Both the position numbers and the translations under genes were made by a program. Below, piece after piece: positions 1,162 to 36,695 of a stretch of DNA of 44,045 bases. Positions within the stretch are counted from its first letter, which is position 1. Every line of letters begins with the position of its first letter. The notes under the pieces were generated by a model. It was not told where the DNA came from. It ran no database searches and worked only from the letters and a program-made list of their open reading frames with translations. The DNA is taken from IMG/VR virus record IMGVR_UViG_3300021424_002425, positions 1 to 44,045 of that record; one strand, written 5' to 3'. Origin of the DNA: a virus.

Positions 1162-1921
1162 AGGTTGGGTTGGTCGAAAGATGTTCGACCAACTTGTAAT
1201 TAATGGGCATGTAGTAACTCTATGTCCACACTATAAAGTAGAAAATTTGCTTCTTAATTATAGAACATATGACTGGGTAGTGAACTGTGCTGGTGTTACG
1301 GGTGTACCAAATGTTGATGCTTGTGAAAAAAATAAAGCAGAAACAATGGAAGCAAATGCAATATTCCCGTTGCGTCTTTATGAAATTTGTCATGATGCAG
1401 GAATTAAATTCGCACACTTCTCAAGTGGGTGCATTTATGAGGGCGAAATCATAGATGAATATGATGATCCAAACTTCTTTGGCAGCACTTATTCTATTAG
1501 CAAGGGTGTTTCAGACATTTTGTTAAAAGATAAGTGTTTAGTTTTTAGAGTTAGATTGCCATTTGACGGATCTCACAATCAAAAAAATCTGTTACAAAAG
1601 TTGTATAATTATGCGAAATCAGGTAAACTAGTTGAAGGTGGATTAAATTCAATCACAGACATTGATGAGGCTGTGGAACATGCTGTTGATTTGATTGAAC
1701 GAGATGCTACTGGTCCATACAATCTTGTCAATTGGGATCCAATTACAACACATGAAATTGCTGAATTGATGGAATTAAATTGTGATTGGTGGACTGCTGA
1801 AGAGTTTAAAAAGGTAACAGCTGCAAGAAGATCTAACTGTGTTATTCCTGCATATGAAAGAATGTCACCAGTAAAACATGCGCTTTTGAAAAGAATTAAT
1901 CAATTTAAGGAAACACTATGA
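1139..1921 (+). CDS. NRS/ER-type bifunctional dTDP-4-keto-6-deoxyglucose 3,5-epimerase/4-reductase
   Basis: A 260-aa extended SDR. It has a GRGWVG NAD(P)-binding loop at residues 7-12, AGVTGVPNVDACE at 51-63, a GCIYE motif around Cys98, and an active-site YxxxK at Tyr118/Lys122. From memory of the family, the AGVTG.PNVD.CE block, GCI(F/Y)E, the DDPNFFGSTYS stretch, the RVRLPFDGSHN segment and the late ARRSN motif match the plant NRS/ER and giant-virus enzymes that make dTDP-L-rhamnose in one polypeptide. They match these better than bacterial RmlD. That would explain why no rmlC is seen between rmlA and rfbH. The alternative is a plain RmlD-like reductase. Assignment of the SDR family is certain; the bifunctional activity is inferred from motif similarity. 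Confidence 0.75.
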   Translation: MNILVVGRGWVGRKMFDQLVINGHVVTLCPHYKVENLLLNYRTYDWVVNCAGVTGVPNVDACEKNKAETMEANAIFPLRLYEICHDAGIKFAHFSSGCIYEGEIIDEYDDPNFFGSTYSISKGVSDILLKDKCLVFRVRLPFDGSHNQKNLLQKLYNYAKSGKLVEGGLNSITDIDEAVEHAVDLIERDATGPYNLVNWDPITTHEIAELMELNCDWWTAEEFKKVTAARRSNCVIPAYERMSPVKHALLKRINQFKETL

Positions 1922-3216
1922 AGACTGATGTGGAAAAGACGATTGAACGACTTGTTGAAGAAGTCGGCACGCCGAAGTGGGCATATAATTGTAAGGAATT
2001 TAATCCTGAAAAAGACACAGTGTTTTACAGTGGTCCTTTCTTTGATGAAAAAGAAATCATTGCTGGCGTGACTGCATTTCTCACAGGTAAGTGGCTCGTT
2101 TCTGGCGAGAATGTTGGTAAGTTTCAATGGGCATTTGGTCGTAAGTTTAATGTGAAGCATTGCCATATGGTAAATTCTGGTTCATCAGCCAATCTTACCA
2201 TGGTTGCTGCGCTCAAGAAACATCTCAAATGGAAAGATGGTGATGAAGTCATCGTATCACCTGTTGGTTTTCCAACCACGATTGCTCCGCTTGTTCAGAA
2301 TAATCTCAAACCAGTGTTCGTTGACATTGAAATGAACACATTGAACTTTGATGTCAATCTCGTCAAGAAAGCATTGACAGATAAAACAGTTGCTGTATTC
2401 GTTTCACCAGTGCTTGGTAATCCACCAGATATGGATGAGATTGCGAAGTTCTGTGCAGATAATGATCTTTATTTGATTGGCGATAACTGCGATTCATTGG
2501 GCACTCGTTGGGATGGCAAGTTGCTCACTGACTATTATTATTCTTGGACAACTTCTTTTTATCCAGCACATCACATCTCAACTGGCGAAGGAGGCATGGT
2601 TTGCTCAAATGACGAAGAACTTATTAATACAGCGCGTTCGATTAGTTGGTGGGGTCGTGATTGTCGTTGCGTGGGTGCTGCTAATCTTTTGGCTTGCGGC
2701 ACGTGCGGTAATCGATTCGACAAGTGGCTCGAAGGATACAACGGAATCATCGATCACAAATACCTATTTACAAACATGGGATACAATCTCAAACCACTAG
2801 ACATGCAAGGTGCGATTGGTATTGAGCAGTTGAAAAAGATTGATGAGATTGACACGAAGCGTCGATGGAACTTCAATAAAATCGCAAAGATGATTGAGAA
2901 ATATGTTCCTGGTGTTCGTGTAGCAAATCATCTCGAAAAGGCAGATCCATCTTGGTTTGGAGTTCCTCTTATTACAGAGACGGCAGAACTAAAGGCAAAA
3001 TTGCAAGACTTCTTTGAGAAGAATCGTATTCAAACTCGTAATTATTTCGCTGGCAATATTCTACTACATCCTGGATACAAGCATCTTGGAAATGCAGCAG
3101 ATTATCCAAATGCTAATCTTGCATTGAGTAATGTGTTCTTTGTTGGGTGTCCACCACATTATGGCGATACAGTCTGGGAATATTACGAAAGCGTGTTACA
3201 AAAATGGCACTCATAA
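1918..3216 (+). CDS. rfbH: RfbH-like PLP/[2Fe-2S] 3-dehydrase (DegT/DnrJ/EryC1/StrS fold)
   Basis: A 432-aa fold-type I PLP enzyme of the sugar aminotransferase family. The usual PLP-anchoring lysine is replaced by histidine in SFYPAHHISTGEGG (His219), the hallmark of E1/RfbH, which removes the C3 hydroxyl of NDP-4-keto-6-deoxyhexose instead of aminating it. Cys191, Cys249, Cys251 and the pair Cys260/Cys263 sit where E1 binds its [2Fe-2S] cluster. The gene starts in an ATGA overlap with its upstream neighbour and overlaps the next SDR by 13 nt. RfbH needs an E3-type ferredoxin reductase, which is not visible here, and in bacteria it uses CDP-sugars; whether this version takes dTDP-sugars is unknown. 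It is probably a step toward a 3,6-dideoxyhexose. Confidence 0.9.
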   Translation: MKTDVEKTIERLVEEVGTPKWAYNCKEFNPEKDTVFYSGPFFDEKEIIAGVTAFLTGKWLVSGENVGKFQWAFGRKFNVKHCHMVNSGSSANLTMVAALKKHLKWKDGDEVIVSPVGFPTTIAPLVQNNLKPVFVDIEMNTLNFDVNLVKKALTDKTVAVFVSPVLGNPPDMDEIAKFCADNDLYLIGDNCDSLGTRWDGKLLTDYYYSWTTSFYPAHHISTGEGGMVCSNDEELINTARSISWWGRDCRCVGAANLLACGTCGNRFDKWLEGYNGIIDHKYLFTNMGYNLKPLDMQGAIGIEQLKKIDEIDTKRRWNFNKIAKMIEKYVPGVRVANHLEKADPSWFGVPLITETAELKAKLQDFFEKNRIQTRNYFAGNILLHPGYKHLGNAADYPNANLALSNVFFVGCPPHYGDTVWEYYESVLQKWHS

Positions 3217-4088
3217 ATGTCTTCGGAGGAAATGGATTTGTTGGAAGCGAATACTGCAAAGTCTCAAAAGATGTTCTCATCAAAAACTACAGAGAAAATG
3301 TGGGAGTATTCAGTTCTGACGCTGTATATTTTATTAGCACTGTCGACAATTATAATGTCCATGTCAATAGTCAGTTGGATATACACACTAACCTCGTTGT
3401 TTTAATGAATGTTCTCGATAACTATCGAGACTATATAAAATCGTTCAAGAAAGATGGGGTGTTTAACTTTATCAGTTCTTGGTTTGTTTATGGACAGGAC
3501 TGTGGTTTCGGAGCAGATTCAAGAGGAATTCCTGAAACTGATCCATGTGATCCAAAAGGATTCTATTCTATCACAAAGAGATGCGCCGAACAATTGCTCA
3601 TGTCATACTGCGAGACGTTCGGACTCAAATATCGTATATTGAGGTTGGCAAATGTATTGGGTCCGAAAGATAAAAAGGTTTCTGCGAAGAAAAATGCGGT
3701 CCAATATCTATTGGGCGAGCTCGCTGCGAACCGACCCGTCGATCTCTACGACTCTGGTTATTTTTATCGTGATTATATTGATGTTAGGGATTGCGCTAGA
3801 GCAATCGATATGGTTGTCAGCAAAGGAGAAGTCAACTCCATCTACAATATCGGAAACGGAAAGGGAATAGTTTTTCGTGATATTATTCGTTATGCTCGGG
3901 ATGCAATGGACTCTGGATCTGACATTCGTACCATTGAGCAAAAAGATTTCCACAAAACAGTTCAATCTTCCCGATCATTTTTTATGGATAATACCAAGCT
4001 GAAAGAGCTTGGATACAGACCGAATTATACCATTCAAGAGACAATTGATACCATTATTTATGAATTATTAACTAAACAAAATAACTAA
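3204..4088 (+). CDS. NAD-dependent epimerase/dehydratase (possible dideoxyhexose synthase)
   Basis: A 294-aa extended SDR. The NAD-binding loop FGGNGFVG lies at residues 7-14, the active-site pair Tyr121/Lys125 is in FYSITK, and a substrate-proximal serine sits in FISSWFVYG. The C-terminal half has the typical YRDYIDVRDCARAI and IYNIGNGKGI segments. ATG 3204 was chosen because the conserved MALINVFGG begins there and the 13-nt overlap with rfbH is compact; longer starts would run deep into rfbH. Its place after rfbH resembles the Salmonella order in which abequose/paratose-type synthases follow RfbH, so a 4-ketoreductase role is plausible. The sequence alone does not fix the substrate. Confidence 0.8.
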   Translation: MALINVFGGNGFVGSEYCKVSKDVLIKNYRENVGVFSSDAVYFISTVDNYNVHVNSQLDIHTNLVVLMNVLDNYRDYIKSFKKDGVFNFISSWFVYGQDCGFGADSRGIPETDPCDPKGFYSITKRCAEQLLMSYCETFGLKYRILRLANVLGPKDKKVSAKKNAVQYLLGELAANRPVDLYDSGYFYRDYIDVRDCARAIDMVVSKGEVNSIYNIGNGKGIVFRDIIRYARDAMDSGSDIRTIEQKDFHKTVQSSRSFFMDNTKLKELGYRPNYTIQETIDTIIYELLTKQNN

Positions 4089-4119: not shown

Positions 4120-5259
4120 ATGCAACGATTTAAGTTTTTTGTTGAATCATTTTTAATTGAAGCCAAACAACCTGTTGGCATTCAACATATAGAACATCCC
4201 TCAGACCGTAGTTTTGACGGTCATCAAGCTGCTCGTTATGCACTCACAACTCTTCGCGGAATTGCGATGGGTCGCACTCCTTTCACAAAAAAAATTGACG
4301 ATAGAATGTCATTTTTGATCAAAAAAGACCAAGAAGGAAGAGTCGCAGTCAAGTACAAAGGCGCTGGGTCAGACTATAACTACTCTAATGACGATATTGA
4401 ACGTCAACATGGCGCTAAACCATACCTAATGCAGCCTCTAAAAGCGCTTTTAGCCCATGGTCATAAGGTTTTACCTAACAGACAAGGCGAATATCAGGGT
4501 GGATTTATGTCTACACCCGAAAGTAGGGCTGAAAAGAGTGGTAGAATCGGTCATACACCGAACACAATCAGTTATTCAGTGAGAAAAGACTCGCCAGAAG
4601 GTAAAAAACTCGCTGGATCAAAGGTCAGTATGACTATTCATACTGAATTAAAGGGTTCTAATCGAAAAGCAACTCCTATTGAGTCGCAATCAGAGTTCGG
4701 AAGTCATCCTGACGTGCATCTTGTCGATCATACGGTGTCTGCCGAAGAAAGAAAGATACCTGCAAGTGCTAAAAAGTCTGCTTTGACTCACATATCAGCC
4801 GCAGAAAAGTTAATGAAGGATCATAACTATGGGCATTTGTCTGGTCATGAAACGCATATGAGAACTTACGTCAATTCAACCGTCGATTCTGGTGAAAAAC
4901 CAAATACAGAAGGCTACAAAGCCCATCTTCAAAAACGTTGGCAAAAAGAAATCGATAAAGTAAAGACCGAAAAAGCCAAAAATGCAAAAACAGCACAACG
5001 TGATGCTGATTTGACGCATGTAGACAAAAATAAAACGGCATTTGATCGCTCTTTTCAAATTCATCATCATATGCAACAAGCAACTAACGCTTTGGCAGAT
5101 AATTTAAATAGAACTGCCCATGGTGGCGTTCGCACTGAAATTGGCGGTAAAGAATCAGGTGGCGAAGGTTTCGTTGCCAAGGGTTTAAAGATTGTAAATA
5201 GAAAAGAATTTAGTAAAGAAAATCGCGCAAGAACTGCACTCTTGAGAGCAAAGAAATGA
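4120..5259 (+). CDS. Conserved marine-T4-like hypothetical with capsid-targeting-like leader
   Basis: A 379-aa protein. ATG 4120 is preferred over GTG 4108 because the protein then opens with MQRFKFFVESFLIEAK. That resembles the T4 internal-protein capsid-targeting leader (MKTYQEFIAE), with possible cleavage after FVE or LIE. The body resembles a conserved family of aquatic T4-like phages (I recall it as DUF6267; not checked), recognised by GRIGHTPNTISYSVRKDSPEG and the SKVSMTIHTEL segment. KKIDDRMSF near residue 57 sits where homologues, as I remember them, carry KWDG, reminiscent of nucleotidyltransferase motif I; the Gly is Asp here. The C-terminal third is basic and Lys/Ala-rich. No function is known. 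It overlaps the next gene by ATGA. Confidence 0.75.
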   Translation: MQRFKFFVESFLIEAKQPVGIQHIEHPSDRSFDGHQAARYALTTLRGIAMGRTPFTKKIDDRMSFLIKKDQEGRVAVKYKGAGSDYNYSNDDIERQHGAKPYLMQPLKALLAHGHKVLPNRQGEYQGGFMSTPESRAEKSGRIGHTPNTISYSVRKDSPEGKKLAGSKVSMTIHTELKGSNRKATPIESQSEFGSHPDVHLVDHTVSAEERKIPASAKKSALTHISAAEKLMKDHNYGHLSGHETHMRTYVNSTVDSGEKPNTEGYKAHLQKRWQKEIDKVKTEKAKNAKTAQRDADLTHVDKNKTAFDRSFQIHHHMQQATNALADNLNRTAHGGVRTEIGGKESGGEGFVAKGLKIVNRKEFSKENRARTALLRAKK

Positions 5260-8084
5260 GTAGAGCAACATTTACATTTGGAAGATTTAATCCGCCAACA
5301 GAAACAGGTCACGGTAAACTTGTATCAGCTGTCCAATCTCATGCTGAAGAAACTGGTGGAAGTCATTATATTTTCCCATCGCATACTCAAGATAAGAAAA
5401 AAAATCCATTGACACATGAAGAAAAAGTTGGCGCAATGAAAAAATTATTTCCTAGTGCTAATGTTGTGTCAAATGATAAAGTAAAAACTGCAATAGATGC
5501 AATGAAGCATTTAGAATCAAAAGGTCATAAGCATGTGACAATGATTGTTGGCTCAGATCGTGTTGCAGAGTTTCATGGATTACTTTCTAAATACAGAAAA
5601 AAAGAATTTCCTGGAATTAAAAAAGTAGAAGTTAAATCAGCTGGACATCGTGATCCTGATGCTGAAGGAGCGGAAGGTATGTCTGCTTCTAAACTTCGCG
5701 GATTAGTTGCTGCTGGAAAAAAGAAAGAATTTGTTTCACATTACAGCGATCCAAAATTGGGCGCACATATACACGATAAGGTAAAAGCAGGTATGCAAAT
5801 GGAATCAACAAATCCAGTCGGTATTTTTCTACTTGGTGGTCCAGGAAGCGGAAAAGATTATGTTCTCAGTAATATTTTTTCTCGCTTTGATTTAACTGAA
5901 GTTCAAATCGATCATGTGCTAAATGGTGCTGCAGATGAACTTATTGAACAAAAGAAAAATATTATTATTAACGGTTCTATTGATAAAGATAAAATTGCTG
6001 TTGTAAATTCTATTCTTGAAGGTTATGATATTGATTACGTTTATGTTTCAGTTACGAATAAAGTATCACGTTTAAGAAATTCATTGCGTGAAAATCCACT
6101 TGCGGAAAATAAAAGAATTGATAAGTTTCTTCGTGCAGAAAAACTCGCCGAATCAGTTGAATGTTTTAAATTTAATAACTCAATTAATTTAAATGAGTCT
6201 TCAGACTTTGAGAAAGTATTTTTTGCTGATCAAATTGAAAAACTTCTTTCTCGTTTGTTAGAGCATGATCTAGAGATACAAGAAGTATCTGAAGCAAAAA
6301 CATTTGCTCCAGTTGCAAAGCATAAGTCAGGTCTACCAAAGAAGTATGTTGGTAAATTATCAGATGCAACTGCTTCTGCTCGTAAGGCTCATTGGAAAAA
6401 GATGAGTAAGTATTCTGATAAAGATTCACGCGCATATGCACCTGCTCCTGGTGATGCAACATCAAAAACGAAGCCAAGCAAGCATACTCTCGCTGTTCGT
6501 AAAATGATGGATGAACAAGTTAAAGCAGAAGATAAGCCACTACCATTGAAACTTCGCAAAGCACCACGCAGCGGTAACATTACTGCAGTGATGAATAAGC
6601 GTCAAGAGACAGGTCGAGTTTCTGAAGAAACAATCGATGAAGGTGCAGCAGATAAGTCTCTTGCTGCAAAAGCAGAAAAGTCTGGTGTTTCTTTAAGAAC
6701 ACTCAAGGCAGTTTATCGTCGTGGTGTTGCTGCTTGGAATTCTGGACATCGTCCAGGAACGACACCACAACAGTGGGGTCATGCGCGCGTGAATTCTTAC
6801 ATCAACAAAGGTAAGACTTATCACACAGCAGATAAAGATTTACGCGAAGAAACCGAAGAAGATATTAATGCAATATTTGAGATGCAATTAGTTGGCGCGG
6901 ACGAATACCGAAAGCATGCTATTGCTATGACACCAGGACAAGGAGAACCAGTAGATGCTTTCCCAGTTAAAGAACCAAATAAAAAACCTGTGGCAGTTCC
7001 TGCAAAGCGAGGAAAATCCATTGTATCGCAATATGAAGAACACACAGAATGCGGAACACCGAACTGCTGTGGAGAATGCGGATCAAATGAATCAATTGGA
7101 AAAGGAAGTAACACAGATAATGCTGTACGGTTTGCAGAAGAAAAAGAAAAAGATGGAAGAGAAGATGGAGTAGATTTTACTCCAGATATTCAAACTAAAA
7201 AGTTAAAGAAGGGATTAAGAACTCCAGGAAATATGAGATTTTCATATCTTGATGGTCTCCCAGTCACAACATCAAGAGTAACAGAAACTCATCACGAGAT
7301 CGATCCATCAACGATGTCATCACCTCCTGGATTTGAATATAAATCAGCGAAGCCACTTTCAAAGATTCGTAAATCAATGCCTGTTCCTCGTCAGATTCCT
7401 GCTCCTCCTGGGGGGCATTCAGTTCCACCAGGATACAAAAGAGTTCGCGATCATATCGCTGGATGGAAACTTGTAAAAGAAGATAATTCTGAACTAACAC
7501 TTCAAGAAGCTGTTGAATACCACACAGAAAATAATATCTCCTTTACCGAGAATGTTTTTCGTCCAGGATCAGATATGTTCTTCGAGTTAATTGATGAAGC
7601 CAAGAAATTGTATAGCGAAGGCAAGTATACACCTGCCGACGAATATGAAATTGACATGCTCAAATCAGATATCGGTGAAATCGCTGAGTACGAAGGTCAA
7701 ACTGTTGTTCTTGATTATCCAGTTGAAGAGGGTTTGGAGGAAGCATGCTGGTCTGGATATGTGCAAAAAGGATTAAAGAAGAAAGGCGGCAAGATGGTTC
7801 CTAATTGCGTTCCTGTAAATGAAGAAGACAAAACAGGCGGCAAAGGCATTGGCAAACCATGGCAAGAAGGTGGTGGTGGTGCTGTATACGTTAAAGTCGG
7901 CGACAGCGTTCGTAAGATCAGTTTCAGTAAATCTGGAATGAAAAAGAAATATATGGATCCTGCAGCCACAAGAAGTTTTGTTGCGCGTCATCATTGTTTG
8001 ACAAACAAAGATCGCACCAGTGCTTCTTATTGGGCTTGCCGTTGGCCAAGATTCTTTAGTAACTCAGGTAAAGTGTGGTGGTAA
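5256..8084 (+). CDS. Multidomain virion polyprotein: adenylyltransferase-like, P-loop kinase-like and cleavable C-terminal modules
   Basis: A 942-aa mosaic. Residues 1-175 are a cytidylyl/NMN-adenylyltransferase-like fold: FTFGRFNPPTETGH (a GxFxPxHxGH-type motif), IVGSDR and a SASKLR motif like ISSTxxR. Residues 185-330 hold a P-loop domain with Walker A GGPGSGKD at 194-201. The order (adenylyltransferase then kinase) recalls NadR, but substrates are unknown. The remainder is hydrophilic and cut up by likely prohead-protease sites: TIDE at 459-462, LIDE at 778-781 and GLEE at 826-829. Two modules common in T4-like phages follow such sites: a block with AAWNSGHRPGTTPQQWGHAR after residue 463, and CWSGYVQKGLKKKGG after 830. 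The tail ends with SYWACRWPRFF. It is probably a head-associated protein that is processed, but no catalytic role is proven. Confidence 0.75.
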   Translation: MSRATFTFGRFNPPTETGHGKLVSAVQSHAEETGGSHYIFPSHTQDKKKNPLTHEEKVGAMKKLFPSANVVSNDKVKTAIDAMKHLESKGHKHVTMIVGSDRVAEFHGLLSKYRKKEFPGIKKVEVKSAGHRDPDAEGAEGMSASKLRGLVAAGKKKEFVSHYSDPKLGAHIHDKVKAGMQMESTNPVGIFLLGGPGSGKDYVLSNIFSRFDLTEVQIDHVLNGAADELIEQKKNIIINGSIDKDKIAVVNSILEGYDIDYVYVSVTNKVSRLRNSLRENPLAENKRIDKFLRAEKLAESVECFKFNNSINLNESSDFEKVFFADQIEKLLSRLLEHDLEIQEVSEAKTFAPVAKHKSGLPKKYVGKLSDATASARKAHWKKMSKYSDKDSRAYAPAPGDATSKTKPSKHTLAVRKMMDEQVKAEDKPLPLKLRKAPRSGNITAVMNKRQETGRVSEETIDEGAADKSLAAKAEKSGVSLRTLKAVYRRGVAAWNSGHRPGTTPQQWGHARVNSYINKGKTYHTADKDLREETEEDINAIFEMQLVGADEYRKHAIAMTPGQGEPVDAFPVKEPNKKPVAVPAKRGKSIVSQYEEHTECGTPNCCGECGSNESIGKGSNTDNAVRFAEEKEKDGREDGVDFTPDIQTKKLKKGLRTPGNMRFSYLDGLPVTTSRVTETHHEIDPSTMSSPPGFEYKSAKPLSKIRKSMPVPRQIPAPPGGHSVPPGYKRVRDHIAGWKLVKEDNSELTLQEAVEYHTENNISFTENVFRPGSDMFFELIDEAKKLYSEGKYTPADEYEIDMLKSDIGEIAEYEGQTVVLDYPVEEGLEEACWSGYVQKGLKKKGGKMVPNCVPVNEEDKTGGKGIGKPWQEGGGGAVYVKVGDSVRKISFSKSGMKKKYMDPAATRSFVARHHCLTNKDRTSASYWACRWPRFFSNSGKVWW

Positions 8085-8353: not shown

Positions 8354-10189
8354 ATGGCAGAAGTAAAAGTCCCACCACTACTACACAAAATGTCACTTGC
8401 CTCTCAGAAGGCATGGTATAAGAAACATGGCATGGAAATGCCAACTGCACCAAAAGAAAAAGAGCCAGAAGGCAAATCTGCTGCTGCAGCAAAGCGTGTG
8501 AAAGTCGAGCCAAGAAAAACAGTTGCTGTTGAACCAGGTTCTGTTCGTGCAATAAATGCCGCTCGTCAAAAAGCATACATGGATAGGGGTGGACGTCAAC
8601 CAATTGGAGCAATGGGTTCTGGTGGCAGCAATGTAATGGCTGGTGCTGGACAGTCCACGATTAAAGATCTTAAAGCCAGTATCAAGGCAGGGTTTAATCC
8701 AAAAGTTTCTCTTGATCCATATCAATCAGAAAGAGCAAAGAAAGCAAAAAATGAATCTGTTGATGATGCTGCAAAAAGAAAAAGGATGTTTGATCTAAAA
8801 CTAAAAATGATCAAAAAAGTTGCAAACAAACCAGCACTTAACAAGCCATCTAAGTTTGCTGACAAGCCATCAACTGCTATGAGCCCAAGAGATGATATGA
8901 AATTAGCACCAAAAGCACCAAGCGGCAAGGGTGGGCTTTATTATGATGAAGCAGCAAAACCAGATGCTTCAATGGCAATGACTGATACTCTCAGAAAACA
9001 AATGATCAGCGACAAAGATAAAAGAACATTAGGTAAAATTGCTGATCTCATGGCTTCTCAAAAGAACAAAGATAAGAAAAATGCTTATGTTCGTTCACTA
9101 GGATTGAAGGCAATGAGAGCTGGCAATGTTGATCCAGCAAGAGGTCACAGTCCAACTCGTTTCGGTCGCGAAGTGTTGGCAAAAGAAGAAGTCGAGCAGA
9201 TTGATGAAATCAAAATCTCTGATGTGATCGCTGCTACTCGCGGCAAAAGCCCAGAAGAAAAAGAAAAGATTATTAAGGCGATGAGAGAAAAAGAAAGAGC
9301 ATCAAAGCCAGCACCAACACCAAGAAAACCAGAACCAGCTAAAGATATTCCAATGCATCAAAGAGTCTATCCACCTGATATGAAGTATCATGGCGATAGC
9401 GTAGAACTAGAGGGTCCAGTCATGAACGAAGGTAGAATGAAAAATATCGTAACAGATCGCGAAGAAACAGCAAGATTAAAAGCACAAGATGTTCTTGGCG
9501 GTCCAGTCAAAGACAAACCAAAAGGTCCAGCAGGTAAACATCCTCTTGGATATAGACTTGCACGCAGTGCTGCTCGCAGAGCAATGAAAGGCGCAATTAG
9601 TGCAGTTCACAAATCAATGGAAAAAACTATGGCAAAAGAAGAAGTCGAGCAAACAGACGAAGCAGTTAAAGATGCGGCAGATGTGGGTGAATACGATTAC
9701 GAAGGAGATATGGCAAAGTCTCAGCTTCGTAGCATTTTGACAAACGCCAAACGTCTCCATGATATGTTAGAAGATAATGATAATTTGCCAGAGTGGGTGC
9801 AGAGCAAGATTACTCTCGCCGAAGATTATATTCTTACAGCCGCCAATTATATGGATGGCGAAATGAACGAAGAAGTCGAGCAGATTGATGAAATCACTGG
9901 ATATGAAGGAGCGAAAGATCGAAAAGATATGATTAAAAGAGCAGCTGCTATGAATAGAATGGGAAAACAAACATTCCTTGATAGAGTAAAAACACGTGCT
10001 GCTGAAATGAAAAGAGAAAAAGCAAAAAAAGAACTTGCTAACGAAGCAGCAGAAGGTTCTGTTCCAACAACTCCAAAAGAAAAGGCACTCGCTGCGCATC
10101 ACGGCGATAAAACAAAAATCACTTATGGTGATGTAATCAAAGCTCGTTTAAAGTCAGCTGCTGAAAAAGCAATGAAGAAGGGTAACTAA
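8354..10189 (+). CDS. Repeat-bearing virion polyprotein with EEVEQIDE motifs
   Basis: A 611-aa, very hydrophilic Lys/Ala/Glu-rich protein with no recognised enzyme domain. The start is short and globular-looking (MSLASQKAWYKKHGMEMP). Three copies of the octamer EEVEQxDE end at residues 285, 436 and 513, separating segments of about 75-150 residues; the first and third are EEVEQIDE and the second is EEVEQTDE. I-D-E fits the (I/L)-x-E consensus cut by T4 gp21-type prohead proteases, so the ORF reads as a polyprotein of basic peptides that could be packed inside the head. The segment around YDYEGDMAKSQLRSI (residues 452-466) is acidic and helical and differs from the rest. A scaffold or core role is also possible. 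No homologue of known function is recognised. Confidence 0.7.
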   Translation: MAEVKVPPLLHKMSLASQKAWYKKHGMEMPTAPKEKEPEGKSAAAAKRVKVEPRKTVAVEPGSVRAINAARQKAYMDRGGRQPIGAMGSGGSNVMAGAGQSTIKDLKASIKAGFNPKVSLDPYQSERAKKAKNESVDDAAKRKRMFDLKLKMIKKVANKPALNKPSKFADKPSTAMSPRDDMKLAPKAPSGKGGLYYDEAAKPDASMAMTDTLRKQMISDKDKRTLGKIADLMASQKNKDKKNAYVRSLGLKAMRAGNVDPARGHSPTRFGREVLAKEEVEQIDEIKISDVIAATRGKSPEEKEKIIKAMREKERASKPAPTPRKPEPAKDIPMHQRVYPPDMKYHGDSVELEGPVMNEGRMKNIVTDREETARLKAQDVLGGPVKDKPKGPAGKHPLGYRLARSAARRAMKGAISAVHKSMEKTMAKEEVEQTDEAVKDAADVGEYDYEGDMAKSQLRSILTNAKRLHDMLEDNDNLPEWVQSKITLAEDYILTAANYMDGEMNEEVEQIDEITGYEGAKDRKDMIKRAAAMNRMGKQTFLDRVKTRAAEMKREKAKKELANEAAEGSVPTTPKEKALAAHHGDKTKITYGDVIKARLKSAAEKAMKKGN

Positions 10190-10934
10190 TATGAAATATC
10201 TAGTCGAACTTAAATATACAAATCCAGCACATGAACACGTTTCATTGCGTCGTCGCGTTGAAACAGTTACTCGTTTAATTGAAGCAGCAAACGAAGATCA
10301 AGCAATTCTTCGCGTTTCTCAACAACAACGTGCTCTTGGTTTCTTCATCAAAGAAGCAAAGGTCGTGAAAGAAAAAAGTCACGATAAAGAAGGTGGTGAT
10401 GAGACTGTCGTTGCAAAAGGCAAGGATGTCATGAAAAAAGCCAAAGGCAAAGATGAGAAAGACGAAGTTGAGGCAGAGGATGTCGAAGAAATCGACGAAG
10501 CACAAAAGAAACTTCGTCCATCTTACTGGAAAGCAGAGTGGCGTTTGGGTACGCAAACTGATGTAGATAAGAATAATAAAAAGATTTATGATCGCCTCGC
10601 TCAAACTGATCCAGATAAAGCCAAAGCATTCCATGATAATCTCATGAGAATGAAGAAGAAAGATGTCAAGGAAGAAGTCGAGCAGATTGATGAACTCAAG
10701 AAGTCTACACTTGCTTCTTATGTTAAAAAAGCAACGCGCGATGTGGCATCAGCAAGTCGACTTCAAAGAGGTTATGAAACGGATGCAGCCAGAAAAGGTG
10801 ATGCAGCAAATTATGTTGCAAGAGGTAGTGATTTAGCAGCAAAAACAATGAGAAAATTTGCTGCCAAAAGATCTAGAGGCATTGCAAAGGCTGTTGATAA
10901 ATTAGCCAAAGAAGAAGTCGAGCAAGTGAATGAA
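9185..10934 (+). repeat. Dispersed 24-nt coding repeat (EEVEQIDE)
   Basis: Five copies occur in two adjacent genes: 9185-9208, 9638-9661, 9869-9892, 10671-10694 and 10911-10934. Copies 1, 3 and 4 are identical over all 24 nt (they begin GAAGAAGTCGAGCAG). The others keep the first 13-14 nt and then diverge to give EEVEQTDE and EEVEQVNE. A degenerate form (VEEIDE) lies near 10480 and a truncated EEVD near 11085. Nucleotide identity amid dissimilar flanks suggests recent copying or conversion. Confidence 0.9.
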
Positions 10935-11327
10935 AAAATTAATCTCGTTACAGCCAAGATGGGCGATGTGATCAAAGACTTCCAAAAATCTGATGCTCCA
11001 CAGTTTAAAGGCAAATCTCAAGAAGAACGTCGCAAGATGGCACTTGCTGCAAAACTTGGCGCAGAAAGAGAAGCAGGAATGCGCGAAGAAGTCGACACTG
11101 ACAAGCGTGATGCTGGATACAAAATGTCACCTGCTGTTCGTGCTGCTCAAGCCAAGTCTGATGCGCTCTCAAAACCAGAGAAGAAACATCAAGCTGGAAC
11201 TCTTGGCGCACACAAAGCACGCAAGGCAGCAGAAAGAATGGTCGACGCTGCAAAATCAAAGGTTAATAAAATCAATATGAATCCTTCATTGGAACCACAC
11301 GCTCATTCATTAAAATTGAACAAGTAA
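10191..11327 (+). CDS. Second EEVEQIDE-bearing virion polyprotein
   Basis: A 378-aa protein starting one base after the previous stop. Residues 1-50 form a small globular-looking domain (MKYLVELKYTNPAHEHVSL... with LIEA and FFIKEAKVV). The latter is like the cleavage junction of T4 internal proteins. The rest is basic and lysine-rich with motifs ending at residues 168 (EEVEQIDE) and 248 (EEVEQVNE), plus VEEIDE near 100 and a shortened REEVDT near 300. The segment after residue 168, LKKSTLASYVKKATRDVASA, is a module I recognise from other marine T4-like phage proteins. The function is probably internal head protein or DNA-compacting peptides; this is inference. Confidence 0.7.
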   Translation: MKYLVELKYTNPAHEHVSLRRRVETVTRLIEAANEDQAILRVSQQQRALGFFIKEAKVVKEKSHDKEGGDETVVAKGKDVMKKAKGKDEKDEVEAEDVEEIDEAQKKLRPSYWKAEWRLGTQTDVDKNNKKIYDRLAQTDPDKAKAFHDNLMRMKKKDVKEEVEQIDELKKSTLASYVKKATRDVASASRLQRGYETDAARKGDAANYVARGSDLAAKTMRKFAAKRSRGIAKAVDKLAKEEVEQVNEKINLVTAKMGDVIKDFQKSDAPQFKGKSQEERRKMALAAKLGAEREAGMREEVDTDKRDAGYKMSPAVRAAQAKSDALSKPEKKHQAGTLGAHKARKAAERMVDAAKSKVNKINMNPSLEPHAHSLKLNK

Positions 11328-11338: not shown

Positions 11339-11800
11339 ATGCTTAAATTTAATGAGTTTTTAAAAGAAGAAACTGAAGAGGTCATGGAAGTCGATGACCA
11401 GTATGTTATGAGCAATATGGAAACTTTAAATAGTGACCTAGATGTTATTACAGAAAGACCTTATCAGAATGCACCAATTCTACTTGCTCAACTTCGCGGC
11501 ACGTTAGAGCGATATGGTGTCATTTTACCAGCATCTGCAACGTCACAGTTTCTTTATCTAAATGCTGAACTTGTTTACGCTGTTGGTGGTACAGGATATT
11601 ACATGTACATCGTTTATGATACAAACGAAGATGGATATGTTGATGGCTATGCGCAAGTTGTATCGAATGAAGAACTAAAAGATTTAGTTGGCATGGATAG
11701 AGATGAAATTCTCAATTCAAATCGCAATTTGATTGCTGTTCGTCATTCTGACTGGTATCGCAAACGAGACGATGACGCAGGTAACACTAACGAATATTAA
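11339..11800 (+). CDS. Conserved hypothetical with capsid-targeting-like leader
   Basis: A 153-aa acidic protein opening with MLKFNEFLKEETEE, which fits the T4 internal-protein leader pattern with cleavage expected after FLKE. The body contains ATSQFLYLNAELVYAVGG, then YMYIVYDTNEDGYVDGYAQVV and DLVGMDRDEIL. This looks like one alpha/beta domain; the DTNEDGYVDG loop resembles a calcium-binding loop (D-x-N/D-x-D-G) but is not a confirmed EF-hand. I recognise the family only as an unnamed T4-like phage protein. It is followed three bases later by the next gene. Confidence 0.7.
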   Translation: MLKFNEFLKEETEEVMEVDDQYVMSNMETLNSDLDVITERPYQNAPILLAQLRGTLERYGVILPASATSQFLYLNAELVYAVGGTGYYMYIVYDTNEDGYVDGYAQVVSNEELKDLVGMDRDEILNSNRNLIAVRHSDWYRKRDDDAGNTNEY

Positions 11801-12248: not shown

Positions 12249-12620
12249 ATGAAGAAATTTAAAGAATACATAAAAGAAGATGCCCCAGCAAACGCTATGG
12301 GCGCAGCAGGTATAAGCGGTCTTGGTTCTGCTGTTAATGTTGGTGTTGCGGGTTATGACCGATTACTTATGGGCGGTAAGATTCTTCGCCGCAAACCACC
12401 CGTAATGTTTGGTGGAAAGGCAGTATTTAAATTACCATCTGATAAATTTTATAAAGCAAGACTTGGTAAAAAAAAGTTTGAGCATTACGCGAGTTATGTT
12501 GGTCGCGATGAAGCAGGTGATGAAATTCGTGCCTACATAAAAGAGAATCCTAATGCAGCTGTGATCATTGAAGATGAAACAACAGGTGCTATGTTTTATT
12601 TGAAACACGGAAAGAGGTAA
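12249..12620 (+). CDS. Conserved hypothetical with capsid-targeting-like leader
   Basis: A 123-aa protein opening with MKKFKEYIKEDAP, a close match to T4 internal-protein leaders; cleavage would follow YIKE. Then comes a Gly/Ala-rich segment with AAGISGLGSAVNVGVAG, and a basic region with the pairs PPVMFGGKAVFKLPSDKF and KFEHYASYVG. The family is familiar from T4-like marine phages but unnamed. The basic middle and targeting leader suggest a head-packaged protein. No enzyme motif is visible. It is followed by a lipoprotein gene after four bases. Confidence 0.7.
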   Translation: MKKFKEYIKEDAPANAMGAAGISGLGSAVNVGVAGYDRLLMGGKILRRKPPVMFGGKAVFKLPSDKFYKARLGKKKFEHYASYVGRDEAGDEIRAYIKENPNAAVIIEDETTGAMFYLKHGKR

Positions 12621-13285: not shown

Positions 13286-14452
13286 ATGAGTTTAGCATCA
13301 TTACAAAAGAAAATTGGCGTAACAGCAGACGGTGCGTGGGGTCCTGGGACTCTGCGTGCCGCTGCTGCTTATTATAAACTTTCACCAGCTCGCGCTGCAC
13401 ATTTCTTTGGGCAAACTGCTCATGAAACGGGTGGGTTCAAAGCATTTACCGAGAATCTAAACTACGGAGCCAAAGGATTGCGTGGTATTTTTGGTAAATA
13501 TTTCAAGACAGATGCAGAAGCATTGAAGTATGAGCGCAAGCCAGAAGCGATTGCAAATCGTGTCTATGCTGGACGCATGGGTAATGGCACAGAGATGACA
13601 GGTGATGGTTGGAAGTTTCGTGGACGTGGTGCGTTACAATTAACAGGTCGTGATAATTATCTCGCGTTTTCTAAATACTGCAATCGTCCAGATGTAATGA
13701 CAAATCCAGATCTTGTTGCTGGTGAACTTGCATTTGAGTCAGCGATGTTTTTCTTTGAAAAAAATAAACTTTGGGCATTATGTGATACAGGAGTAAATGA
13801 TGCTTCGATATTATCCGTTACTAAAAAGGTTAATGGTGGTACTCACGGCTTGGAAGATCGCACGAATAAGACGAAAACGTACCATGCACAATTAAGTGGT
13901 CCTGCGCCAGTCGCAAAACCTGCGGCAGCACCAGCTGCTGCTCCAGCTGCTACACCTGCTGCTGGAAAAGTAAATCCAGAAATGCAATTATCTGAACACT
14001 TTAATCTAAAAGAATTTACAAAATCAGAAACTGCGATTCGTAAGCGAATCGATAATACGCCAAATGCTGATCATGCTCAAAATCTTAAAAATGTATGCGA
14101 AAAAATTCTTGAACCTGTGCGGCGTCATTTTAATAAGCCCGTGCGTATTAATTCTGGCTACCGTGGTCCTGCCCTTAACAGTGCTGTTGGTGGTTCTAGC
14201 AAGTCTCAACATTGCAATGGAGAGGCTGTCGACTTTGAAATTGACGGACTTGCCAATCCTGAACTAGCAAAATGGGTCAGTGAAAATTGTGAATTCGATC
14301 AAATTATCCTAGAGTTCTATGATCCAAAGGAAGGACCAAACTCAGGTTGGGTCCATGCTTCCTATACAACCAAAGGACCAAATCGTAAACAAAAATTAAC
14401 AGCATTGACTGAAGGTGGGAAAACCGTTTATAAACCAGGATTTTTAGCATGA
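13286..14452 (+). CDS. Bifunctional endolysin: GH19 muramidase/chitinase-like plus M15 peptidase
   Basis: A 388-aa modular lysin with a near-perfect Shine-Dalgarno (GAGGTGAT) seven bases upstream. Residues 1-30 resemble a peptidoglycan-binding start (GVTADGAWGPGTLRA). Residues 35-205 are a glycoside hydrolase 19 domain: catalytic Glu48 in QTAHETGGF, and the FRGRGALQLTGRDNY substrate motif at 111-125. An Ala/Pro linker spans about 206-228. Residues 235-385 are an M15-type D,D- or L,D-peptidase: SGYRG, then His309 and Asp316 in SQHCNGEAVD, and His357 in GWVHASY, the three zinc ligands. There is no signal peptide, so export depends on a holin. The start overlaps no other gene; the end overlaps the next gene (ATGA). 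Confidence 0.93.
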   Translation: MSLASLQKKIGVTADGAWGPGTLRAAAAYYKLSPARAAHFFGQTAHETGGFKAFTENLNYGAKGLRGIFGKYFKTDAEALKYERKPEAIANRVYAGRMGNGTEMTGDGWKFRGRGALQLTGRDNYLAFSKYCNRPDVMTNPDLVAGELAFESAMFFFEKNKLWALCDTGVNDASILSVTKKVNGGTHGLEDRTNKTKTYHAQLSGPAPVAKPAAAPAAAPAATPAAGKVNPEMQLSEHFNLKEFTKSETAIRKRIDNTPNADHAQNLKNVCEKILEPVRRHFNKPVRINSGYRGPALNSAVGGSSKSQHCNGEAVDFEIDGLANPELAKWVSENCEFDQIILEFYDPKEGPNSGWVHASYTTKGPNRKQKLTALTEGGKTVYKPGFLA

Positions 14453-15081
14453 TTGATCAATATATTGATCGCGTTGACAAAGCAGTTCAAAAAGCGACAC
14501 TTGATAATGGAACAAAATTGCCTGTTGAGATTTTTCAACTTCCAGGAATGTCTTCTCGTGAAGGAAGAATATTATTAAATGAAATTGTTCAAGAAGGTGA
14601 TAAGTATCTTGAAATAGGAGTTCATAAAGGTTCCACTTTTGTTTCTGCATTGTATAAAAATAATGTACAAGCAGTTGCCATTGATAATTTTTGTGAATTT
14701 GGGACTATGGAAGATAATAAAAAGTGGTTTGATCAAGCATGTGTTGATCATCAAATAACAAACTTTAAGTTTATTAATCGTGATTGTTTTAGTTTATTTG
14801 ATGACGAAAAACAATTAATCCATGAAACTAATGTTTATTTTTATGATGGAAGACATGAAGCTGAACATCAAGAAAAAGCATTAACGCATTTTGTGGATTA
14901 TCTAACTAATCCATTTATCTATATTGTAGATGATTGGAACTATGAGCCTGCAAGAATAGGAACTAAATCTGGCATACAGATATTAAATTTAAACACTCAC
15001 AAAGAATGGATTCTTGATGGAAGCACAACAAATAAAGGTTGGCATAACGGTATGTACATTGCTGTGATGAGTAAGCAATAA
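14449..15081 (+). CDS. Class I SAM-dependent methyltransferase-like protein
   Basis: A 210-aa protein with a Rossmann SAM-binding core: YLEIGVHKGSTF is motif I, VAIDNFCEFG follows as the acidic strand, and VYFYDGRHEAEHQ with IVDDWNY are typical of the Methyltransf_24-like class. In related enzymes the paired acidic residues bind a metal and act on sugar hydroxyls. It begins in an ATGA overlap with the endolysin and leads a run of glycosyltransferases, so methylation of a glycan is the most economical guess. The target is not shown by sequence. Confidence 0.75.
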   Translation: MIDQYIDRVDKAVQKATLDNGTKLPVEIFQLPGMSSREGRILLNEIVQEGDKYLEIGVHKGSTFVSALYKNNVQAVAIDNFCEFGTMEDNKKWFDQACVDHQITNFKFINRDCFSLFDDEKQLIHETNVYFYDGRHEAEHQEKALTHFVDYLTNPFIYIVDDWNYEPARIGTKSGIQILNLNTHKEWILDGSTTNKGWHNGMYIAVMSKQ

Positions 15082-15093
15082 TTTTATTATTTT

Positions 15094-16095
15094 ATGAAAA
15101 TACATTTATTGACGAATCCTCGCAATCCAACAGGATTGACGAATAGAATTGATCCCTTTGCGGTACACGCATACAAATACATAAAACATCTTTCTAACCA
15201 TTATGAGTTTATTCACTATGGTATTGAAGGCGCACAAGTAAATTGCGAACATGTAAATGTTCCTGGTATGATTGACGCAGATACAACTGCATTTAATCAA
15301 GCAGCAGGAAACGAAATTCAAAAAAGAAAAACAAAAGATGATCTGATCGTTTGTTTTTTTGGTATTGATAATAAATTAGCCTGTGACATGAATTCAGAAT
15401 GTAAAGTCATTGAACCATCTATTGGTTATAGATCTAATGGGGTTTTTGCACCATATCGTGTGTTTACTTCTTACGCAAATATGCATTACTATTATGGTGA
15501 AAATGGAATGCTGATGAAACCATCTTGGTTTGATGCGGTGATTGGTAATCCATTTACCATTAGTGAATTTGAGTATTCTTACGAGAAACAAGATTATTTT
15601 TTATTTCTTGGTCGCGTTATGGAAGAGAAGGGTATACATCTTGCGATACAAGCAACAGAAAAATTAAATAAAAAACTTATTATAGCAGGTCCTGCAGATG
15701 ATTTACGTCATCTTGGTTATGATAAAATACCTGACCATGTTGAGTTAGTCGGTTATGTGCATGCTGAGAAGCGAAAAGAACTTCTAAAAAATGCAAAAGC
15801 ACTTCTTGGTTTGACATATTATGTTGAACCATTCGGTAATATGATTATCGAGGCTAATTTGTCTGGTACTCCTGTGATTACAACAGATTGGGGTGCATTC
15901 CCAGAGATAGTTCTTGATGGTCAGACGGGGTATCGAATCAGAGACTTTAAACAATTATTAAATGCGATGGAAAACATAAAGTACATTGATCCAGTGGAAT
16001 GTAGAAAATGGGGATTAAATTTTTCCGACGAAATAATCCACGAAAAACATCATCAATATTTGCAAAAAGTTATAAAGAATTCTTTTTATGATTAA
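15094..16095 (+). CDS. GT-B glycosyltransferase, family 4-like
   Basis: A 333-aa retaining glycosyltransferase. The C-terminal half is classic: FLFLGRVMEEKGIHLAIQA, then KKLIIAGPADD, HVELVGYV, and EPFGNMIIEANLSGTPVI, the E-x7-E motif that holds the donor nucleotide-sugar; DWGAFPEIV follows. The N-terminal acceptor half is less conserved. No Shine-Dalgarno is obvious, so translation may be coupled to the previous gene. It overlaps the next glycosyltransferase by 8 nt. The donor could be one of the dTDP-sugars made by the 5-prime operon; this is inference. Confidence 0.9.
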   Translation: MKIHLLTNPRNPTGLTNRIDPFAVHAYKYIKHLSNHYEFIHYGIEGAQVNCEHVNVPGMIDADTTAFNQAAGNEIQKRKTKDDLIVCFFGIDNKLACDMNSECKVIEPSIGYRSNGVFAPYRVFTSYANMHYYYGENGMLMKPSWFDAVIGNPFTISEFEYSYEKQDYFLFLGRVMEEKGIHLAIQATEKLNKKLIIAGPADDLRHLGYDKIPDHVELVGYVHAEKRKELLKNAKALLGLTYYVEPFGNMIIEANLSGTPVITTDWGAFPEIVLDGQTGYRIRDFKQLLNAMENIKYIDPVECRKWGLNFSDEIIHEKHHQYLQKVIKNSFYD

Positions 16096-16846
16096 AAAGT
16101 TATTCATTATTACATCAACAATTGAACCGAGTGATATTGGACTCACCTATTCCAAAGTGCGGAGTATATTCTCACCTGACGAAAGATTTAGGCAAACTGT
16201 TGGTACTATCACTTCAATACATAATGCTCATCCAGATGCAAAAATTGTGTTGTTAGATTCTTCAAATGATACAAATGGATTACTAAATCATCTACGCTTT
16301 ATGCCCAACTTAAATGTTGTGTCATTAAAAAACATAAACTCAGAAATTGCAGAGATTGTAAACACAAATAGAAATAAAAGTTTATGCGAATGTTTGATGA
16401 CCAATACCTATCTTAAACAATATAAAAAATATGTCAATGAGTTTGATTTTATTATTAAAGTGAGCGGAAGATATAATCTATTTAATTTTACAGATTATTT
16501 TACTGAAGAAAATAAAAATAAAATATTTTTTAAAAAACCATCTTGCTTTAAATGGGGTAATGATTGGGACTGGAGATTTCACCATGTTGATTTGCGACAT
16601 TCTCAACAGGACGATTACCTTCGACAATATTGTACAGTGCTATTTTCATTTGCAACAAATCATTTAGATAAACTAATAGATATGAATGATGCAATTATAC
16701 ACTTTCTAAAACAACCATCAATGTCTCAATATGATATGGAAATACTTTATTATTATCTGTCTAGATCATTTGAATCAGATATAATTGAAACTGAATGGTC
16801 TGTCTGTGGATGGGATGGCACTTCTGGTAGATTTATGTATTACTAA
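16088..16846 (+). CDS. Putative glycosyltransferase-like protein (KxSGRY family)
   Basis: A 252-aa protein with a Rossmann-like start (KLFIITSTIEP), then IVLLDSSND and a FIIKVSGRYNLFNF segment. KxSGRY is found in a poorly described group of viral and bacterial GT-A-like proteins. The WGNDWDWRFHHVDLRHSQQDD stretch and the C-terminal ETEWSVCGWDGTSGRF look like conserved acceptor regions. No canonical DxD is obvious; D-W-D at about residue 159 is the closest. It overlaps the preceding GT4 gene by 8 nt, supporting a linked function. Fold assignment is moderate and activity is inferred. Confidence 0.6.
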   Translation: MIKKLFIITSTIEPSDIGLTYSKVRSIFSPDERFRQTVGTITSIHNAHPDAKIVLLDSSNDTNGLLNHLRFMPNLNVVSLKNINSEIAEIVNTNRNKSLCECLMTNTYLKQYKKYVNEFDFIIKVSGRYNLFNFTDYFTEENKNKIFFKKPSCFKWGNDWDWRFHHVDLRHSQQDDYLRQYCTVLFSFATNHLDKLIDMNDAIIHFLKQPSMSQYDMEILYYYLSRSFESDIIETEWSVCGWDGTSGRFMYY

Positions 16847-16850
16847 TATT

Positions 16851-17408
16851 ATGAAAACAACAATAATTGTAACTGATGATTTTTATCAAAACCCAAATGC
16901 TGTGCGGGAATATGCATTATCGCAACCATTTGAAGTTCGTGGTAATTATCCTGGTCTAAGAACTAAACCATATTTACCCGATGATCTAAAACAAAGTATA
17001 CAAAATATTGTTTATCAAGCCGCAGGTAATATTACCGATTGGATGGAACATTCTGGATATACTGGTGCATTTCAAATTTGCACAGCACAAGATAGAACAT
17101 GGATTCATGCTGATAGTTACAATAATTGGGCAGCAGTTTGTTATCTAACTCCAAATGCGCCATTGTCAGCAGGAACAGCATTATACCGCCATAAAGAAAC
17201 CGAATCATATGTAAGAGAAGATAACACTCAGCCACATCTAGATGGATATGACTATACAAAATGGGACATGGTAGATTATGTCGCAAACAAATACAATCGA
17301 ATCGTAATGTATCGCGGCAATTTATACCATGCTTCTTTGGATTATTTTGGAGATAATTTATATAATGGTAGATTATTTCAAACTTTTTTCTTTAATACTG
17401 AATACTGA
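16851..17408 (+). CDS. 2-oxoglutarate/Fe(II) oxygenase-like protein (DUF6445-type)
   Basis: A 185-aa protein. ATG 16851 was chosen because the upstream extension lies inside the preceding gene, whereas MKTTIIVTDDFYQNP is a typical start. The double-stranded beta-helix facial triad is visible as His86-x-Asp88 in WIHADSYNNWAAV and His160 in GNLYHASLDYFG, with Arg174 in NGRLFQTFFFN placed to bind 2-oxoglutarate. This matches a family I recall as DUF6445. The substrate is unknown. It lies between glycosyltransferase genes and just before the collagen-like fibre block, so a hydroxylated side chain or sugar is plausible. Its stop shares one base with the next ATG. Confidence 0.75.
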   Translation: MKTTIIVTDDFYQNPNAVREYALSQPFEVRGNYPGLRTKPYLPDDLKQSIQNIVYQAAGNITDWMEHSGYTGAFQICTAQDRTWIHADSYNNWAAVCYLTPNAPLSAGTALYRHKETESYVREDNTQPHLDGYDYTKWDMVDYVANKYNRIVMYRGNLYHASLDYFGDNLYNGRLFQTFFFNTEY

Positions 17409-18188: not shown

Positions 18189-18578
18189 ATGGCAGACATC
18201 TCAGCTAACAGATATGATATGATTATGTGGCAAGGAAGCACCTTTGGTATGAATGTTTCCGTTCAATACGCCAATGGATCAGTTCAGAATCTTACAGGTT
18301 ATAGCGCGAGAATGCAAATACGCAGCACCTATGGTTCTGCAACTGTAACTGAATCGCTTACAAGCGCAAATGGCGAAATCGCAATTAGTGGTGCAACAGG
18401 CACTTTGACGCTTACATTACCTGCCATCAGAACAAAAGACATATTTGTTGATTTGAATGATTCATCCAAACCACCAAAAACAAAATACGTCTACGATCTA
18501 GAATTAGTAGATAACACGAACACAGTCACAAAATTGCTCTATGGTGATTTATCAGTTTATGGCGAAGTAACTAGATGA
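18189..18578 (+). CDS. Fibre/baseplate adaptor-like structural protein
   Basis: A 129-aa beta-rich protein with the recurring phage pattern of a polymerisation domain: [36 protein letters not shown], then [15 protein letters not shown] and [12 protein letters not shown]...[14 protein letters not shown]. Similar small proteins precede fibre genes in many phages and resemble BppU-type N-terminal domains, which attach fibres to the baseplate. It is first in the collagen-like block and its stop overlaps the next start (ATGA). Structural role is likely; exact position in the virion is not known. Confidence 0.75.
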
Positions 18579-36044: not shown

Positions 36045-36695
36045 ATGAAAACATTTAAACAGTTTATTTTTGAAGGTCCACTCAGCTCAATACCTGCACA
36101 AAAAGGACTCAAAAGAAATTTCTTCCACGGAAACTATGGTGGATTTGGAAATCGTGGTGGTGCTCCAACGGATAAATTAGATGCAGCATTCCAGAAACAT
36201 GATACTGGATACCATTATTCTAAATCACCGCAAGATAAAGCAAAACATGATCGAAGTTTAGTTCGTGCCACAAAACAATTAAGAAAAGATAAATCATTAC
36301 CACTATCCACAAGAGCAAAGGCTGGAGCGGCAAATTTATATTTTCGTAGTAAACTTGCTCTTCAAAAAGAGAGCGAAGCGCGCATTCCAAGAAAAGAAGG
36401 TCAACCTGCAGGCAGTAAGCAGCATAGTGATTTATACACAGATGAAAATCCAAAAGGCACTATACATGGTCTTAAATTTGCTACAACTGATGATGCGAAA
36501 GCAAGTGTAAGTAAAATTAAAAATAGTGGTCGCAGTCATGCTCATAAAATACAAGCAGCTGTTGCCATGGGACAACGTGCAAAGGTTATGGGTAAAACAG
36601 GTCCTGCTGGTGTTTATAATAAATTTATAAATATGATGAAAAAGAAAACTAAAAAGATGAAAGAAACATCACCGAGAAGAGCATTTCAAAAATGA
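36045..36695 (+). CDS. Capsid-targeted phospholipase A2-like protein
   Basis: A 216-aa protein. It opens with MKTFKQFIFE|GP, a very close match to the T4 internal-protein leader (cleavage after IFE). Residues 26-72 look like a parvovirus-type secreted phospholipase A2 site: Ca2+ loop HGNYGGFGNRGG, Asp43 and Asp46, catalytic His52-Asp53 in FQKHDTGYHY, and the distal Asp69 in KAKHDRS. The C-terminal part (HSDLYTDENPKGTIHG ... SVSKIKNSGRSHAHKIQAAV) is a basic module common in T4-like phages. It suggests an enzyme packed in the head and delivered with DNA. Lipase activity is inferred from motif geometry, not proven. Confidence 0.7.
   Translation: MKTFKQFIFEGPLSSIPAQKGLKRNFFHGNYGGFGNRGGAPTDKLDAAFQKHDTGYHYSKSPQDKAKHDRSLVRATKQLRKDKSLPLSTRAKAGAANLYFRSKLALQKESEARIPRKEGQPAGSKQHSDLYTDENPKGTIHGLKFATTDDAKASVSKIKNSGRSHAHKIQAAVAMGQRAKVMGKTGPAGVYNKFINMMKKKTKKMKETSPRRAFQK

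Follow-up and report, generated by a model that had tools for sequence, protein, structure and literature searches.

In this work, we analyzed a 44,045-nucleotide stretch of DNA (hereafter the window), a 44-kb fragment of a T4-like aquatic phage record (IMG/VR IMGVR_UViG_3300021424_002425), and found three genes, encoding proteins of 942, 611, and 378 amino acids (aa), in which modules are separated by junctions that end in a short conserved core, often within the longer form EEVEQIDE. These genes probably encode head-cargo polyproteins that are cut into serial modules by gp21, the prohead protease. In the mechanism that we propose, each chain consists of small, mostly basic modules joined by junctions that would each end in a gp21 site, (I/L/V)-x-E↓ (the arrow marks the putative cut). 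Like the T4 internal proteins, the precursor would become part of the prohead core, and gp21 would cut it after the junction Glu during head maturation. The freed modules, which may be DNA-binding, structural, or effector-like, would remain in the head with the DNA and be injected along with it into the next host. The coordinates of the features are given in Table 1.

Junction core and module shuffling

The pattern EEVEQ(I/T/V)(D/N)E occurs exactly five times in the window, at the places in the 611- and 378-aa genes given by the initial annotation, and 0 times in 100 dinucleotide-preserving shuffles. All three EEVEQIDE copies are identical over 24 nucleotides (GAAGAAGTCGAGCAGATTGATGAA), as that annotation had also noted. 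Based on the window's codon usage, such agreement by chance has a probability of about 2e-4, so common descent or conversion probably links these copies. The motif also occurs outside this virus. An exact-match scan of viral contigs for DNA that encodes EEVEQIDE found at least 120 stretches, and the same scan of 257 Gb of bacterial and archaeal genomes found only 21 single matches. The viral loci contain 239 motif-like copies, with up to seven per protein. Among 123 motif loci, 114 share other proteins with T4-like genomes; a search for motif-bearing contigs outside the T4-like group, intended as a negative control, found none, the remaining nine loci, which lack T4-like matches, being short. 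In six larger genomes, the extended motif is restricted to a few long genes. One short module used as a query matched no phage record.

The segments that follow the motif belong to many unrelated, mostly basic module families. In the relatives, the segments between motifs have a median isoelectric point of 9.4, compared to 6.6 for other open reading frames (ORFs), as expected for T4-type internal proteins, the mature parts of which are basic and poorly conserved. This agrees with the earlier description of the motifs as dividing basic, dissimilar segments.

Profiles of the modules were built from the segments after the motif, and the residues preceding each module were read in copies without the long motif. 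Eight families entered the statistics. Families 10, 13, 26, 28, and 30 were excluded because of a shifted profile start or because they represent gp21 itself, and the remaining small clusters were left unpooled because they have one to few copies or are covered by family 0-like repeats. We found [ILVM]-x-E exactly at the boundary in 85 of the 89 module copies without the long motif (77/89 for the strict [IL]xE), compared to a background of 2% at random positions and mostly zero at shifted offsets. By eye, approximately 7 of the 11 copies in the excluded family 26 also fit this rule. The information is concentrated at P1 (Glu, 3.97 bits) and P3 (Leu/Ile, 2.67 bits), and all other positions from P10 to P6′ are lower. 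The rule also fits 30 of 31 boundaries in held-out copies, which come from loci retrieved by way of the 378-aa protein, and the only exception reflects a shifted alignment. Of the six peptides used to retrieve these loci, one (EQVNEKIN) overlaps a junction, so this result may carry a small bias.

In T4, gp21 cleaves after Glu in L/I-x-E (PMC9026906), which is the consensus that the initial annotation had invoked. In terms of sequence, the junction core of P3 Leu/Ile and P1 Glu is this published rule, and L/I-x-E sites, as expected for gp21 substrates, are found at the module boundaries. The related junctions reported for the 942-aa gene (ETIDE, ELIDE, and EGLEE) are present. Across this protein and nine orthologues, the ELIDE↓AK junction always has Ile at P3 and Glu at P1, and its P2 is D, S, K, G, or E. 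The boundary of the DUF5824 module reads TIDE, VIDE, VNE, IEE, or VDE in orthologues; in the relative L002, this module is located in another gene and follows EEVEQIEE.

The modules are also shuffled among genes. In L002, a single 853-aa protein joins modules that are spread over the 942-, 611-, and 378-aa genes of the window, with several alignments ending at motifs. In the orthologues L226 and L003, the KINLVTAKMGDV module is missing at the corresponding place. An alignment of relatives, which had been suggested as a check on the motifs and spacers, shows that the junctions stay while the modules shuffle. One alternative is that the motif is a recombination seam and flexible acidic linker for such shuffling and that the proteins act uncut. 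The three DNA-identical copies favor this explanation, as do the enrichment of alignment ends within five residues of a motif (27 and 21% vs. 8% at random, all motif proteins) and the synonymous identity of motif copies, which is higher within contigs (6.66 of 8) than between contigs (5.28 of 8; codon usage per contig uncorrected). Given the breakpoints near motifs and the higher within-contig identity, recombination probably takes part in module exchange. However, the retention of mainly P3 and P1 after the rest diverges is not explained by recombination. A seam requires DNA likeness rather than fixed amino acids, so the persistence of P3 Leu/Ile and P1 Glu in unrelated families, after the DNA and the remaining motif have fully diverged, counts against it. 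The orthologous junction that varies at P2 with P3 and P1 fixed, and the capsid targeting sequence ends that occupy the same boundary in other genes (see below), point in the same direction. We consider it unlikely that the motif is only a seam.

Several other observations concern the modules in the relatives. A HicA-toxin-like module (44 bits in L045, residues 74–124) is located behind an LxE junction, is also found in L031, L039, and L049, and is a possible injected effector. In L045 (1936–6231, minus strand), a 1431-aa putative polyprotein has a KNKPTNP-type module that is interrupted by an intein-like insertion (residues ~843–1089); this insertion is related to the one in phi92-type phage DNA polymerases. 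An AT-hook-like DNA-binding sequence, KRGRGRPAGSKSGAR, lies at or near the end of the putative polyproteins G020 49120–51702, L065 1149–4901, and L047 507–2189.

Capsid targeting, gp21, and virion proteins

Internal proteins of T4 enter the head via a ten-residue capsid targeting sequence (CTS), which is removed by gp21 (PMC9026906). Four genes of the window, starting at 4120, 11339, 12249, and 36045, have CTS-like or nearly CTS-like starts. In the six larger genomes, 18 CTS-like starts were found, compared to approximately 1.5 in shuffles, and many of these are near modular genes. The loose CTS pattern is also richer in motif ORFs than in their neighbors (22 vs. 12.5%, p 0.01). The KINLVTAKMGDV module, which follows EEVEQVNE in the window, is found in other phages after MIKYKQLQE↓, MLKFKDLME↓, MKTYKQLQE, or MSQKKFKDFLSQLDE. 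Other modules are located behind CTS-like starts whose ends coincide with the same boundary or fall a few residues away (e.g., MKSFLEFQKLDE↓ and MKSFKNFIAE↓R), and the CW-GY module elsewhere follows a CTS or an internal LxE within a few residues. Because the same modules are found behind internal junctions and CTS ends, the two look interchangeable in these sequences.

Another possibility is that repetition of the acidic motif gives avidity for a docking partner, such as the scaffold core or portal, and that the motif is not cut at each copy. The extended EEVEQ is itself kept in many copies, beyond the needs of a three-position protease rule, and acidic residues are enriched ahead of I/L-x-E sites. 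However, EEVEQ is freely lost while I/L-x-E stays at the boundary, and the site lies exactly between modules in shuffled contexts. Moreover, targeting in T4 requires only the N-terminal CTS (PMC9026906). These points make a docking role highly improbable.

The genes for gp21 and gp23 were always found together (16/31 records in one set and 9/16 in another) and neither was ever found alone. A gp21 homologue outside the window, for which a search had been recommended, is present in all 25 related records that carry gp23. These include G029 (173 kb), which has gp21, gp23, and an orthologue of the 378-aa gene, and we infer that the genome from which the window derives encodes gp21 as well. The readable gp23 propeptides in these phages end in LNE↓, IAE↓, INE↓, LWE↓, LTE↓, or similar. 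The gp21 N-termini carry ITE/LTE, and one gp21 starts with MRLFTELNEEVEYITE↓, which is close to the motif. In the gene starting at 12249, 42 aa of the arm are 62% identical to gp23 of G029 (E 2e-12), and Glu10 aligns with the putative P1 Glu of that gp23. This gp23-arm copy is possibly a docking module for the capsid lattice. A similar CTS-like gene with a gp23-arm copy was observed in L226 (13717–14082), and such a copy seemingly also exists inside the virion protein S-CREM2 gp160 (L348 6843–7736).

Publications on virions provide detections for related proteins in S-CREM2, S-SM1, and S-SCSM1 rather than in the virus of the window; virion proteomics shows the presence of related proteins, not their cleavage. 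S-CREM2 gp160 was detected in purified virions by mass spectrometry with seven unique peptides (PMC10665884). Its sequence is a module chain that includes a relative of the window's CW-GY module, with INE, LSE, LEE, and ISE as junctions. S-SCSM1_29, a relative of the modular protein of S-SM2, carries the annotation of a virion protein, and a virion proteomics study of its phage has been published (PMC9602691). Cyanophage virions have repeatedly been found to contain cytidylyltransferases that are related to the head of the 942-aa protein (PMC3037559, PMC9602691, PMC10665884), and the cytidylyltransferase T4-GC190 was detected in the S-SM1 virion. T4-GC190 in S-SM2 starts with MKSFFQFLSE↓, and CTS-like starts are found on the cytidylyltransferases of S-SM2, P-TIM68, Sf-CH8, and S-CREM2.

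These detections also bear on the possibility that the proteins work in the infected cell rather than as head cargo, with host or other proteases cutting them as in polyvalent proteins. The enzyme-like domains (cytidylyltransferase and kinase-like) and the HicA-like module of one relative would fit such a role. On the other side are the neighboring genes with a CTS, the related proteins in virions, and the lack of any peptidase domain in the 942-, 611-, and 378-aa proteins or in six relatives scanned. We give this explanation almost no credence.

Several points weigh against head-cargo polyproteins cut by gp21. None of the 942-, 611-, and 378-aa genes has the canonical CTS of T4-type internal proteins; strict CTS starts are no more frequent in motif ORFs than in their neighbors (8 vs. 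9.4%); and no gp21 was found within the window fragment. The P1′ position of the junctions is mainly occupied by L, K, V, R, or I, whereas A, T, G, or D is common after gp23 sites in the same phages. Two junctions in the window, EEVEQTDE (junction 2, Thr at P3) and EEVEQVNE (Val at P3), miss the strict L/I-x-E rule. We tested for depletion of I/L-x-E inside modules and found none, and a related module in the jumbo phage Atu_ph07 is not preceded by LxE. The confidence of the AlphaFold models is too low to tell whether the junctions lie in exposed loops, with a mean predicted local distance difference test score (pLDDT) of 61 for the 378-aa protein and 56 for the 611-aa protein. No cleavage product was found in the openly licensed literature searched, and the authors of the S-CREM2 study noted that co-purification of abundant regulatory proteins is possible (PMC10665884). 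The proposal in the initial annotation that gp21 releases serial peptides from these chains is nevertheless supported by the boundary core, the co-occurrence of gp21 and gp23, the CTS boundaries, the shuffling, and the virion relatives. The term peptides fits less well, as the products would better be described as small modules or domains, some of which are enzyme- or toxin-like.

Modular genes and their surroundings in the window

Table 1. Positions of the modular genes, junctions, modules, and CTS-like genes in the window.
Feature	Positions	Strand	Basis and remarks
DUF6267 protein with CTS-like N-terminus MQRFKFFVESFLIE↓A; first gene of the cluster	4120..5259	+	Pfam DUF6267, 140 bits; CTS-like pattern read from sequence
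942-aa multi-module protein: cytidylyltransferase-like head, kinase-like stretch, DUF5824 module, CW-GY module; I/L-x-E junctions between	5256..8084	+	
Junction ETIDE↓ preceding the DUF5824 module (module ~6642–6845)	6627..6641	+	aa 458–462 of the 942-aa protein
Junction ELIDE↓AK	7584..7598	+	aa 777–781 of the 942-aa protein
Junction EGLEE↓ preceding the CW-GY module (~7743–7841)	7728..7742	+	aa 825–829; kept in most orthologues
611-aa modular protein, putative head polyprotein	8354..10189	+	ORF
Junction 1, EEVEQIDE	9185..9208	+	Motif match
Junction 2, EEVEQTDE; Thr at P3, off the strict rule	9638..9661	+	Motif match
Module DYEGDMAKSQL..., between junctions 2 and 3	9662..9868	+	Search with residues 438–500 only; alignments to relatives
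Junction 3, EEVEQIDE	9869..9892	+	Motif match
378-aa modular protein: N-terminal small alpha/beta domain (aa 1–59), then helical modules	10191..11327	+	
Junction EDVEEIDE; weaker sixth copy, overlooked in the initial annotation	10476..10499	+	
Junction 4, EEVEQIDE	10671..10694	+	Motif match
Module LKKSTLASYVKKA..., commonest module family	10695..10910	+	
Junction 5, EEVEQVNE; Val at P3	10911..10934	+	Motif match
Module KINLVTAKMGDVIKDF...; elsewhere immediately after a CTS ending in LxE; missing here in orthologues L226 and L003	10935..11069	+	
153-aa gene with CTS-like N-terminus MLKFNEFLKE↓E	11339..11800	+	49-nucleotide start region common to the gene at 12249
123-aa gene: CTS-like MKKFKEYIKE↓, then a copy of the N-terminal arm of mature gp23	12249..12620	+	
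Protein with CTS-like MKTFKQFIFE↓G and a weak phospholipase A2-like match	36045..36695	+	19.5 bits, below the 23.9 cut-off

No family from PHROGs or Pfam was found for the 611- and 378-aa proteins, and no significant match was obtained when the PDB was searched for folds similar to the model of the 378-aa protein (best E 0.12). The N-terminal alpha/beta domain of this protein (10191–10367; pLDDT ~85 in parts) has only insignificant fold matches, which include YkzG (E 0.12) and T7 Gp2 RNA polymerase-binding proteins (E 0.18). In cyanophage genes, the DYEGDMAKSQL... module stands alone, and short genes of the relatives have it near their N-terminus.

The primase and ribonucleotide reductase genes in the window are T4-like, and the window's cytidylyltransferase and modular genes are reminiscent of a cyanophage cluster. 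Collagen-like GPQGP repeats are present in several adjacent proteins (18575–28830), which are probably tail or surface fibers. Sugar-nucleotide and glycosyltransferase-like genes (by reading only; 1–4088 and 14449–18154) flank the putative cargo and fiber genes.

Comparison with known systems and implications

The individual elements (the protease with its rule, the CTS, and head cargo) were known before. The T4 internal proteins IPI–IPIII and Alt are similar in several respects, being basic proteins among the CTS-bearing genes (MKxFxxFxxE) that are cut by the L/I-x-E rule and carried in the head (PMC9026906). However, these T4 proteins have one N-terminal site (Alt also has a C-terminal one), whereas the chains in the window have several serial modules with an internal site before each, and the modules are shuffled between genes. 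The prohead core proteins gp22, gp67, and gp68 of T4 do have several I/L-x-E sites each and are cut into fragments by gp21 (PMC9026906). In the window, in contrast, the pieces between sites are conserved and recombining modules, which argues for retained cargo. In the head proteins of SPN3US and phiKZ, a gp21-type prohead protease cuts after Glu at several places (PMC10052503, PMC9026906), but these multiple cuts are in propeptides rather than between conserved modules, and the rule in SPN3US is A-x-E.

Polyvalent proteins of phages and conjugative elements also have many domains per chain and a predicted delivery to the host, and were compared with polyproteins by the authors who described them (PMC5512222). 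These are released by embedded peptidase domains, whereas the junctions of the window chain match the capsid protease; the 942-, 611-, and 378-aa proteins do not combine effector-type domains with an embedded peptidase, which characterizes polyvalent proteins. The cyanophage proteins T4-GC119 and T4-GC190 (S-SM2 gene 109, a cytidylyltransferase) have common modules and the same junction type, and the cytidylyltransferase cluster also shares much gene order, but the extended EEVEQIDE form is rare in them. In the openly licensed literature searched, we found no description of T4-GC119 or T4-GC190 as a polyprotein and no named motif or system of this kind, including serial shuffled cargo modules with capsid-protease sites, which is in line with the statement in the initial annotation that no named system of such form was known.

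We lean slightly toward a general cargo system in T4-like marine and freshwater phages, in which dozens of exchangeable modules (DNA-binding, enzyme-like, or toxin-like) would be loaded into the prohead as one chain, in a single assembly step, and split by the capsid protease for injection as a combinatorial set. Such a system would account for a large set of unassigned proteins in the abundant T4-like phages, and relatives of one such protein were found in 544 phage records. It yields a simple sequence rule for head cargo modules, together with exact predicted cut positions, and would show how phages assemble and reshuffle the set of proteins that they inject. If true, this would be a bacteriophage counterpart of viral polyproteins, with the head protease as the processing enzyme.
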